A model generated the notes under the pieces. It was not told where the DNA came from and made no database searches. It was given only the letters and a program-made list of their open reading frames with translations. Positions 1,566 through 3,847 of a stretch of DNA of 27,271 bases are shown here, piece after piece. Within the stretch, counting starts at the first letter, position 1. Each line of letters starts with the position of its first letter. The translations under genes were made by a program, and so were the position numbers. The stretch spans positions 1-27,271 of IMG/VR virus record IMGVR_UViG_3300008218_000038; one strand, given 5' to 3'. Source of the DNA: a virus.

Positions 1566-1706
1566 TCAGAGATATCTGACAGGCTTATGTTGTTTTTCTT
1601 TCCACATGGGTTCGACGGCGGCGCGCTCTATGTATGATCGCTTCATCTGCCCTTCTAGCGCCTTCCCGTACTTAAGTCTTAGTGTCTCGCCAAAGTTCTC
1701 ACTCAT
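1566..1706 (-). CDS. Small basic hypothetical protein, 46 residues
   Basis: Leftward gene from ATG 1706 to TGA 1566. Its start overlaps the stop of the upstream gene by 8 nt, and its Shine-Dalgarno GGAGG lies inside the last codons of that gene, 7 nt before ATG. The product begins MSENFGET and is Lys/Arg-rich, with MKRSYIERA in the middle. Those MKRSYIERA codons are antisense to a 23-bp stretch identical to part of terL (4466-4488). No family recognised. The start module is almost identical to that of the 95-residue gene, which supports it being translated. Confidence 0.6.
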   Translation of the reverse strand: MSENFGETLRLKYGKALEGQMKRSYIERAAVEPMWKEKQHKPVRYL

Positions 1707-1986
1707 TTCGCTCCCTCCATTCTTTTATAAGGTCTTCTTTGAAGCCCTTAACCTCAACGTCCAGTGCGTGCATGAACGCGCCCTGGTGTCTCTCTTCAAA
1801 CGATTGCTTCATTCGGTCGCCGTGCTTCTCCATCCACGACTTATAGAAGCGCTGAAGCGCCGGGTCACTCAACACCTCGTCATCAGTTCGGGCATACCGC
1901 TGGCGCATCTTCTCTAGCAGCGCCTTGTCTCTTTCATCTTCAGAGCCCCAGGCCCTATCAAGCAACGCTTTTTTGTCCTCACTCAC
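1699..1986 (-). CDS. Hypothetical protein, 95 residues
   Basis: Leftward gene with a GTG start (1986-1984), chosen because GGAGG lies 7 nt upstream and the start overlaps the nuclease stop by 8 nt (GTGAGTGA). The product is highly charged and predicted all-helical: MSEDKKALLDRAWGSEDERD, then KMRQRYARTDDEV and SWMEKHGDRMKQSFEERHQG. Its C-terminus EDLIKEWRERNE is nearly the same as that of the nuclease (EDLIKEWRERGE), because the DNA at the two gene ends is duplicated. No family recognised. Confidence 0.7.
   Translation of the reverse strand: MSEDKKALLDRAWGSEDERDKALLEKMRQRYARTDDEVLSDPALQRFYKSWMEKHGDRMKQSFEERHQGAFMHALDVEVKGFKEDLIKEWRERNE
1708..1737 (-). repeat. Gene-junction repeat, copy 2
   Basis: Thirty bases identical to 1988-2017. 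With two mismatches the match extends to 39 bases (1699-1737 versus 1979-2017). The unit carries the last codons of one gene (EDLIKEWRER), the Shine-Dalgarno, the stop, and the start plus first codons (MSE) of the next gene. Confidence 0.85.
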
Positions 1987-2311
1987 CTCGCTCCCTCCAT
2001 TCTTTTATAAGGTCTTCAAAGTCTTCTAGTGGCATAACGATGTAGGGCTCCCGCCGGTCCTCTTTGATGACGGCCACAGGGACCATGCCTTTGGGGCAGG
2101 TGGTCACCGCGGTCTCTAGAGCTGTTCGGATGGGTGGCTTTTTGCCTACCTTGCACTCTATGTGGAAGGGGCCGGCGCTGACGTCTGGGCACTCAGCGGC
2201 ACCACCTCTCATCTGGAAACCTCTTTTGGCGTCTGTAAAGCCGATGGCCTTGAGCCGGTTGACGACGTCTCTTTCCCACCGAGCTCCTTTTTGGCGCTGC
2301 ATCTTACCCAT
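1979..2311 (-). CDS. PD-(D/E)XK nuclease, Holliday-junction-resolvase-like
   Basis: A 110-residue protein. It shows GARWERD near the N-terminus (Glu13), PDV at residues 42-44 and IECK at 51-54, giving the D-X8-E-X-K catalytic pattern of small phage PD-(D/E)XK nucleases. The following ALETAVTTCPKGMVPVAVIKEDRREP resembles the rest of the fold in phage and archaeal-type Holliday junction resolvases. The likely role is cutting branched DNA in replication or recombination; a restriction-type role beside a methyltransferase is a weaker alternative. The ATG directly abuts the stop of the WPTP frame (TAAATG) and overlaps the methyltransferase stop by 8 nt. Shine-Dalgarno GGAG lies 6 nt upstream. Confidence 0.7.
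   Translation of the reverse strand: MGKMQRQKGARWERDVVNRLKAIGFTDAKRGFQMRGGAAECPDVSAGPFHIECKVGKKPPIRTALETAVTTCPKGMVPVAVIKEDRREPYIVMPLEDFEDLIKEWRERGE
1988..2017 (-). repeat. Gene-junction repeat, copy 1
   Basis: Thirty bases identical to 1708-1737, 280 bp away. It spans the end of the nuclease gene and supplies the Shine-Dalgarno of the 95-residue gene. Both copies sit in the same reading frame of their upstream gene, so the duplication moved a working translational-coupling junction. Confidence 0.85.
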
Positions 2312-3335
2312 TTAGTCTCCTGTTAAGTTCGATATATGCGAGTGCAGCCTGCGCAGGTACGACGCCATTTCCAAGGGCTGTGAGTCTGTCGGTTCTAGAC
2401 AGGTCCAGCTGGGCGGCATGCCCATTAGTAGCTCTACGAACCGCGGGTTCAAACGACGGGTGCGATCCGAGTAGCGTTGGCCACCTGGAGTCTCGCGGAC
2501 CTGGAGCGAAAAGGGGAACTGACACGCCGCAACCGTCAGCGGTTTCCCTGCGCCATTCGAGTTGTTGTGCTTCGCCTTCAACCTCATCGCCCGCGCCTCC
2601 CACGTCTCGGGCGTCTCCCTGTCGTTTGCCACGCTCGCTGCTGGCGTCGGCCAACTCCCCGCTTCCCCGGCTAACGTCTTGCCGTGGGTTTTGCCGTGAC
2701 TCGGAGCATTCCGAGTCGTCCTGTTTTCGTTTGCACTTGCCCTTGGCGTGGGCCAGTGTCGGGCCTGCTGATCCAGTCCCGCCTCGTTCTTGCGGTCCCC
2801 TCCCCTGCTCCTGAAGCTGTCGGTCCCTGGCGTTTGCCAGGATAAAGACCCGTTCCCTGCGGTGGCTGGCGCCTGCCCAGCTGGAAGCTCGAAAACTTCC
2901 CCAGACAGCATCATACCCCATTTCGGCCAGGGGCCCGAGAACGTGTCCAAGCCCGGTAGCAAGCAAACCTGGCACGTTCTCCAGGAAGACTTGACCGGGT
3001 CCCACCACAGAAATGGCGTTGCAGATGTCACCGAAGATGTGGCGCTCGTCTTCAAGCCCTTTCCCTGGCCCCGCAATCGACCACGGTTGGCACGGGAACC
3101 CCGCGGTGATGCAAGAAACTCGACCAGTGAACGCAGCGTAATCGACGTCAGCGAGATCGCCGCACCATATAGGCGCTGCTTCCAGGCTCTGGTCTTCCAT
3201 CCTCGCCAAGAGGCAGGCCGCCGCTGCACTGTTCCGCTCGATCCAGCATATAACTCGGGCGTCTGCTCTGGCGGCTGCAAGTCCAAGCTCAAGTCCGCCG
3301 ATGCCCGAGCACATAGAGAGGACGGTAAAAGCCAT
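2304..3335 (-). CDS. dcm: DNA (cytosine-5-)-methyltransferase
   Basis: A 343-residue C5-cytosine methyltransferase that transfers a methyl group from SAM to cytosine in DNA. Motif I is MCSGIGGLELG (residues 8-18). Motif IV is GFPCQPWS (79-86) with catalytic Cys82. Motif VI is ENV (119-121). Motif VIII is HRRERVFI (158-165). Motif X is GNGVVP (322-327). The ~130 residues between motifs VIII and X, normally the target-recognition part, are hydrophilic and low-complexity (Gln/Arg/Gly/Ser). That is odd and may reflect the second gene read in the +1 frame of the same DNA. The MAFTV start is preferred because GGAG lies 11 nt upstream; the longer frame up to 3434 adds 33 residues with no motif. A probable role is protecting phage DNA from host restriction. 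Confidence 0.9.
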   Translation of the reverse strand: MAFTVLSMCSGIGGLELGLAAARADARVICWIERNSAAAACLLARMEDQSLEAAPIWCGDLADVDYAAFTGRVSCITAGFPCQPWSIAGPGKGLEDERHIFGDICNAISVVGPGQVFLENVPGLLATGLGHVLGPLAEMGYDAVWGSFRASSWAGASHRRERVFILANARDRQLQEQGRGPQERGGTGSAGPTLAHAKGKCKRKQDDSECSESRQNPRQDVSRGSGELADASSERGKRQGDARDVGGAGDEVEGEAQQLEWRRETADGCGVSVPLFAPGPRDSRWPTLLGSHPSFEPAVRRATNGHAAQLDLSRTDRLTALGNGVVPAQAALAYIELNRRLNG

Positions 3336-3340
3336 GTCAT
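2312..3340 (-). CDS. WPTP-type phage protein nested in the methyltransferase gene (+1 frame)
   Basis: A 342-residue frame on the same strand, almost exactly co-extensive with the methyltransferase. Its ATG (3340) has the best-placed Shine-Dalgarno, GGAG with a 6-nt spacer. Residues (numbered from the upstream ATG 3346) show SSWRTCQ (120-126), FSGPWPKWGMMLSGEVFEL (136-154), WPTP twice (198-201, 232-235) and LNPRFVELLMGMPPSWT (299-315). From memory these match a common phage protein family often annotated loosely as DNA methylase, with SSW(R/K)TSQ, FS-TWP-SG, repeated WPTP and LNP-(F/W)VE-LMG-P-GWT. The first ~115 residues are low-complexity. Function unknown; a partner or specificity role for the methyltransferase is a guess. 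It could still be a translation shadow, but the conserved-looking motifs lie where the other frame is least conserved. Confidence 0.6.
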   Translation of the reverse strand: MTWLLPSSLCARASADLSLDLQPPEQTPELYAGSSGTVQRRPASWRGWKTRAWKQRLYGAAISLTSITLRSLVEFLASPRGSRANRGRLRGQGKGLKTSATSSVTSATPFLWWDPVKSSWRTCQVCLLPGLDTFSGPWPKWGMMLSGEVFELPAGQAPATAGNGSLSWQTPGTDSFRSRGGDRKNEAGLDQQARHWPTPRASANENRTTRNAPSHGKTHGKTLAGEAGSWPTPAASVANDRETPETWEARAMRLKAKHNNSNGAGKPLTVAACQFPFSLQVRETPGGQRYSDRTRRLNPRFVELLMGMPPSWTCLEPTDSQPLEMASYLRRLHSHISNLTGD

Positions 3341-3359
3341 TTTCATCTCCCGGTGTACC

Positions 3360-3412: not shown

Positions 3413-3847
3413 ATGACAACTGAATCAACGACATCGACTTTCAAGGTAGACGGGACGGTCTATCACGACCTGCAACTGTTGAAAGAAAAGACAAAGATAC
3501 CGCTGCGGGTCATCATTGACTTGTTGGGCGAGCTGGCTATTGCTGCTTTGACGGTCAGGGTGCGCCCCGAGTGGGATACGCCGCAGCAGCGCCACAGCCC
3601 GAACGGCGGCGCCAAGATAGTTCACATGAGCAACCACATCTACAAGCGGCTGAAAAAGCTGACAGAGCAGATTGGCCTCAACCCTACCACCGCGGTCAAT
3701 GAGGCGTTTTACGCCAAGCGCTCTGACATCAACAGGCTCAAGGGGATCCGCCTGGAAAACCTAAACCAGTGCTGGAACGCAACCTGTGAGACGGCGCGAC
3801 TGGCAAGCCAAAACAGAATCATCCAAGCGCAGAGCCAAGTCCATTGA
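3413..3847 (+). CDS. Tandem ribbon-helix-helix-like protein in the small-terminase slot
   Basis: A 144-residue protein. Two segments look alike: residues 11-43 (KVDGTVYHDLQLLKEKTKIP onward) and 68-99 (VHMSNHIYKRLKKLTEQIGL onward). Each reads as a short strand followed by two helices, as in CopG/Arc ribbon-helix-helix DNA-binding units. A tandem copy would act as a single-chain dimer. The stop overlaps the TTG start of terL by 4 nt, so the two are translationally coupled. Position suggests the small terminase, which recognises the packaging site and feeds DNA to TerL. A transcriptional regulator of the divergent promoter is the alternative. AAAAGG immediately precedes ATG 3413. Confidence 0.55.
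   Translation: MTTESTTSTFKVDGTVYHDLQLLKEKTKIPLRVIIDLLGELAIAALTVRVRPEWDTPQQRHSPNGGAKIVHMSNHIYKRLKKLTEQIGLNPTTAVNEAFYAKRSDINRLKGIRLENLNQCWNATCETARLASQNRIIQAQSQVH

Follow-up and report, generated by a model that had tools for sequence, protein, structure and literature searches.

The window analysed here is a stretch of 27,271 nucleotides (positions 1 to 27,271 of the IMG/VR virus record IMGVR_UViG_3300008218_000038) that encodes terminase, portal, major head and internal virion proteins. On its minus strand, two long reading frames are nested in the same DNA. The first, alpha (2304..3335), is a C5-cytosine methyltransferase chain of 343 aa when read from the ATG at 3335, and matches PF00145. 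The second, the ‘WPTP’ chain or beta (2312..3340), has 342 aa from the ATG at 3340, or 344 aa from an in-frame ATG at 3346, and matches phrog_1008. Beta occupies the +1 frame of alpha, and both frames are open where a preliminary description of this DNA had placed them (within 2304-3346).

The two ATGs lie 5 nt apart in a twin-start region (3333..3351, minus strand) that reads GGGAG-ATGAAA-ATG(beta)-AC-ATG(alpha)-GCT. The GGGAG at 3351-3347 is spaced 6 nt from the beta ATG and 11 nt from the alpha ATG, in agreement with the earlier claim that beta has the better-spaced ribosome site. The alpha frame contains no stop from 3434 to 2304, and its start is probably the ATG at 3335. A longer, 376-aa form of alpha would overlap head-to-head, at 3413-3434, with the start of the plus-strand open reading frame 3413-3847, which immediately precedes the terminase gene.

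At the other end of the locus, the TAA of beta directly adjoins the ATG of the next gene (TAAATG), also as described before. This small PDDEXK/Holliday-junction-resolvase-like gene (1979..2311, minus strand; PF24608 at 3e-5, below its cut-off, and phrog_244 at 5e-20) has its start against the beta stop and overlaps the end of alpha. As far as is known, it stands outside the enzyme discussed below. A 43-base stretch is present twice in the window (1695-1737 and 1975-2017, about 93% identity). The products of the 110-aa PDDEXK gene and of the small gene after it share the C-terminal sequence DLIKEWRER(G/N)E, which looks like the duplication of a 3’ end.

Motif content of the two chains

Alpha matched PF00145 with an E-value of 2e-27 over profile positions 1-169 of 324 only, the match stopping after motif VIII. 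On the minus strand, PCQ of motif IV lies near 3095-3087, ENV of motif VI near 2981 and GASHRRER of motif VIII at 2873-2850. Motif X (LGNGVVPAQAAL..., with GN near 2372) follows at 2304..2375 and is modelled as a helix with pLDDT >90. Motifs I, IV, VI, VIII and X are combined in one chain, as in the catalytic part of single-chain C5-methyltransferases, and the earlier identification of this frame stands. Alpha has no motif IX and no small domain that can be recognised, whether in its sequence, its Pfam match or its AF2 model. Sequence and model resemble M.HhaI and M.HaeIII over the catalytic domain only. In this model, for which rows from annotated phage records were left out of the alignments, residues 36-211 and 357-375 (the motif X helix) are confident, and residues 214-293 are disordered (pLDDT < 50). 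The model suggests that residues 214-293 form a linker spanning just the part of the gene that is owned by beta.

Beta carries none of the catalytic methyltransferase motifs and has zero Pfam or NCBIfam matches; its match among the PHROGs is phrog_1008 (2e-21). A block running from SSWRTCQ to FSGPWPKWGMMLSGE (2897..2989, minus strand) lies over alpha motifs VI-VIII and is constrained in both frames. Downstream lies a WQTP/WPTP/WPTP region (2453..2839, minus strand, with blocks at 2839, 2755 and 2653), the proposed target-recognition part, whose DNA reads as a low-complexity linker in the alpha frame. It is followed by a motif IX, LNPRFVELLMGMPPSW (2405..2452, minus strand), recognised by HHalign to canonical motif IX; the C-terminal end of beta, RRLNPRFVELLMGMPPSWT, takes the form of this motif (compare RRLTPRECARLMGF in E. 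coli Dcm). The WPTP blocks had previously been placed between motifs VIII and X, where alpha is of low complexity. The low complexity holds, and the position needs correction to between VIII and IX/X, with motif IX in the beta frame. In the single-chain arrangement the catalytic chain also includes the recognition domain and motif IX; this is not what we find here, as motif IX sits in beta.

HHalign was run on hand-cut segments because Pfam and NCBIfam miss the IX-X part, even in relatives that have both motifs in one chain. With this procedure, motif IX of beta alone aligned in register with canonical motif IX at a marginal P of 0.0016, and the IX-X module of the type B and C relatives described below matched canonical methyltransferases with a probability of 94.7% and an E-value of 6e-8, both values being indicative given the hand-cut segments. 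The AF2 model of beta alone reached a pLDDT of 59 and a pTM of 0.27, and gave no solved-fold match in Foldseek/VIA searches. The number of WPTP-like blocks per beta chain ranges from 0 to 7 among relatives, a variability expected of a modular recognition part. On the basis of its motifs, we propose that beta is a subunit carrying target recognition and motif IX.

Relatives and selection on the two frames

A tblastn search with beta retrieved 13 annotated phages. Four of these were examined; the overlap was present in each, and the depositors had annotated a single frame, in some cases alpha and in others beta. When viral contigs and genomes were scanned with the beta alignment, 160 further loci emerged, and beta lay in the +1 frame of a same-strand alpha in 169/169 entries at that stage. 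A second set comprised 160 more loci chosen by the alpha frame only. Altogether, both frames were found in 328 locus entries from phages, prophages and bacteria, corresponding to about 291 distinct overlap sequences as some contigs were matched by more than one scan, with beta in +1 of alpha in all 328. In a few loci the beta frame is without its N-terminal part or without motif IX.

Several individual relatives deserve mention. In Acidovorax phage Alfacinha3, gp46 (L001 2039-3205), annotated as a ‘cytosine-specific methyltransferase’, is the beta frame, and the catalytic frame is unannotated. Salmonella phage S9-5 (L331 1997-2745) has a compact member, a close relative of which is present in the chromosome of 4 of 5426 complete E. 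coli genomes.

Beta had initially been taken for a WPTP protein of a separate phage family. All of the relatives found lie in the +1 frame of alpha, its C-terminal motif corresponds to methyltransferase motif IX, and no free-standing beta was found in the viral contigs, the genomes or the inspected annotated phages (a few of the 55 phage matches); we have rejected the separate family. One sign that had been named as speaking against a second gene, a lack of homologues outside methyltransferase genes, is formally present, every relative found being read in +1 of a C5-methyltransferase.

We then considered whether beta is coding. Against the +1 frames of the 160 alpha-selected loci, the beta profile scored medians of 146 and 178 bits, compared with 46 and 61 bits for synonymous shuffles, and the real +1 frame exceeded all 20 of its shuffles in 159/160 loci. 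Canonical methyltransferases of the same genomes contained no comparable beta frame, the best scoring 23 bits. The other two such signs, stops in relatives and free variation at alpha third positions, were not observed. From PCQ to 20 codons before motif X, the +1 frame is stop-free in 139/142 alpha-selected loci, over about 194 codons each, and from the beta start to PCQ it is stop-free in 110/111 loci. In the stretch from motif VIII to motif IX, the first, second and third positions of alpha codons differ 141/35/25 times, a concentration on the wobble base of beta; this order is seen in 19 pairs vs 1. These counts were made on independent pairs of relatives at a local identity >= 80%, using nucleotide alignments in place of protein-guided ones, which misaligned the variable region and blurred the codon-position signal.

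The direction of constraint changes along the gene. Over motifs I-VIII the order is of the alpha type (77 pairs vs 6), and judged by these substitutions alpha is the conserved frame there. The motif IX region returns to a beta-type order (165/40/54), and at motif X third-position variation in alpha reappears (23/17/90). Between the window and its nearest relatives (L113, L007 and L008), the WPTP region differs by 45/17/12 at the three alpha positions. Substitution rates follow the same pattern: beta has a dN/dS of 0.07-0.18 in the VIII-IX region, and its dSN/dSS stands at 0.065 for the VIII-IX and IX regions, with a value of about 0.23 over I-VIII, whereas control pairs of non-overlapping genes (29 pairs) show no such effect (1.15). 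For alpha, dNN/dSN in the VIII-IX region is 1.34 (95% 0.94-2.49), near neutral by that ratio, and dNS/dSS is 0.48, calculated on few sites and leaving room for weak constraint. The frame-by-frame check proposed earlier accordingly places constraint on beta in VIII-IX and on alpha over I-VIII.

The starts are conserved as well. The rule among relatives is a pair of starts separated by 2-5 nt. Where alpha begins with ATGAATGAG, its Asn codon 2, which creates the ATG of beta, is AAT in 105 cases and AAC in 1, whereas AAT makes up just 40% of the Asn codons elsewhere in the same genes, a difference whose significance is overstated because the sequences are related. The shuffles, the open +1 frames, the codon-position differences and the kept starts all uphold the original observation of two fully overlapping coding frames. 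Within the reach of comparative sequence data, we consider it confirmed that both frames are under selection and that the overlap is real.

A proposed two-subunit enzyme and alternative readings

The motif content of the two chains is complementary, and the way in which it is divided varies. In type A, which includes the window and comprises 263 entries, motif IX is in beta and motif X in alpha. In type B (L195, L132, L140, L037, L143, L049, L076 and mycobacteriophage Catdawg gp5), beta has X, with or without IX, and alpha usually stops soon after VIII; both motifs are in beta in L195, L132, L140, L037, L143 and Catdawg gp5. In type C, from Streptomyces and related actinobacteria (L138, L152 and L136, and by eye also L115, L148 and L356), IX and X are both in alpha and beta terminates after the WPTP blocks. 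Finally, in L103, L106, L123, L121 and L077, alpha is stopped just after VIII and motif X lies in a further short downstream frame, perhaps giving a three-piece enzyme; L103, L106 and L123 are related alphaproteobacterial loci in which beta stays open. Such stops are expected if the linker is dispensable. This exchange of IX and X between the chains is most simply explained if the two frames hold between them the parts of a single enzyme.

We propose a function for the pair. As beta is in +1 of alpha in every entry found, matches motif IX and takes part in the trading of IX and X, it most likely supplies what alpha is missing, and the nested frames very probably specify a C5-cytosine DNA methyltransferase made of two subunits, in the manner of M.EcoHK31I, a reading that draws on sequence comparison, structural models and analogy. 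Alpha, with motifs I-VIII and X, would bind AdoMet and carry out catalysis, and beta would provide target recognition, through the SSW and WPTP blocks, together with motif IX. Ribosomes may start at either of the neighbouring ATGs on one message, so that both chains would be co-produced and could assemble into a single enzyme. Between VIII and X, alpha would be a flexible linker, in effect the recognition DNA of beta read out of frame. The pair likely arose from a single-chain methyltransferase that was split by frameshifts after VIII and near IX/X, after which the alpha frame would have stayed free of stops to link through to motif X and the beta frame would have grown upstream as far as the shared start region. 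For this pair we infer the heterodimer, its activity and specificity, and its origin.

Alternatively, beta could be an overprinted protein with a separate job, such as a regulator or an anti-restriction factor, inside a methyltransferase gene. Selection on beta is seen without a function having been shown, and beta has no fold match, both as such a protein might have it; we nevertheless think this improbable, since alpha is without motif IX and the small domain whereas beta has motif IX, motifs IX and X swap between the chains and no beta was found apart from alpha in the contigs, genomes and phages inspected. Less probable again is a single chain made by programmed frameshifting, in which ribosomes would leave the alpha frame for that of beta past VIII and return ahead of X. 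This would string the parts together in their canonical sequence (I-VIII, recognition, IX, X), but most loci would need two opposite shifts, beta keeps its own start codon, and it is constrained over I-VIII, upstream of any shift (0.23 against 1.15 in the control genes). That beta is a shadow frame, thrown up by alpha’s composition and conserved motifs, has next to no plausibility and was rejected, for although every relative is a methyltransferase gene and shuffles alone score about 46-61 bits, the real sequence beats every shuffle in all but one locus, variation falls on the beta wobble base, canonical methyltransferases are without such a frame and the control genes show no comparable ratio.

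Beyond the two-subunit enzyme itself, we entertain a wider reading, to which we give slightly less than an even chance: that a large class of phage and prophage C5-methyltransferases is dual-coded, born of a split by frameshift into a catalytic frame, with a neutral linker over the recognition segment, and a modular recognition frame of 0-7 blocks. On this reading the WPTP-like blocks would be shuffled and rapidly changing, specificity could evolve in one frame with the other largely unaffected, and the trading of IX and X would amount to repeated natural re-splitting of one enzyme.

The practical implications are substantial. Hundreds of phages and prophages have the nested arrangement, and databases usually list one half only; annotation pipelines retain a single frame, sometimes the non-catalytic one. 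If the two-subunit reading is right, a great many cytosine methyltransferases of phages and prophages have annotations that omit one half or mislabel it, and cloning of alpha without beta would yield an enzyme that is inactive or lacks specificity. The family would also supply a large number of testable gene pairs, on the same strand and nested almost completely, in which the direction of selection is specific to each segment; these could serve work on overlapping genes, on the natural splitting of proteins and on translation from twin starts.

Comparison with known systems

An arrangement of this kind is already known from one characterised enzyme, M.EcoHK31I (YGGCCR). Its small chain, of 176 aa, is encoded in another frame within the gene for its large chain, and window beta is similarly placed within the alpha gene. 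The window pair, likened to it by description, further shares a large chain with I-VIII and X but without IX, and a small chain with IX, as reported for the two polypeptides of M.EcoHK31I (PMC3404938). Unlike in M.EcoHK31I, window beta (342 aa) is about as long as alpha, its start is 5 nt away, and no restriction enzyme partner was identified; nothing relevant was found in the literature on EaeI. The predicted recognition domain of M.EcoHK31I was placed in its large subunit (PMC3404938), whereas in the window constraint on the VIII-IX segment falls on beta, alpha being nearly neutral there, which places the recognition part in beta. If this is right, the recognition part of M.EcoHK31I-type enzymes moves to the second subunit.

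M.AquI (CYCGRG) also divides a catalytic half from a recognition and motif IX half on two polypeptides. Its motif X is with IX in the small subunit (PMC3404938), unlike in the window, where motif X is in alpha. The AquI-like distribution is found in type B relatives (L195, L132 and Catdawg gp6/gp5). In Catdawg, I-VIII are in gp6 and a SGTWPTSG block with IX and X is in gp5, in overlapping frames; gp6 and gp5 look like the alpha and beta halves. The overlap differs from that of the window in extending over 209 nt only, with stops in the upstream part of the beta frame. Corndog-type mycobacteriophages (Catdawg gp6/gp5, L329 1538-2489) are already annotated with two adjacent ‘DNA methyltransferase’ genes.

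The same label on phrog_1008, which is the beta family and matches beta chains of all types, is wrong as regards catalysis: its members have the recognition part and IX, sometimes X, without catalytic motifs. In phage ShiLan, an HNH endonuclease is hidden in another frame of a methylase gene (PMC11855218); that case differs in being a mobile insertion encoding an endonuclease, not an enzyme subunit. The literature searched, which lay largely outside subscription journals, contained no description of the nested family beyond M.EcoHK31I and M.AquI. What appears to be new, and is absent from the papers found, is the breadth of the arrangement in phages and prophages, the near-identical starts, a recognition segment selected in beta and nearly neutral in alpha, and the exchange of motifs IX and X between the two chains.
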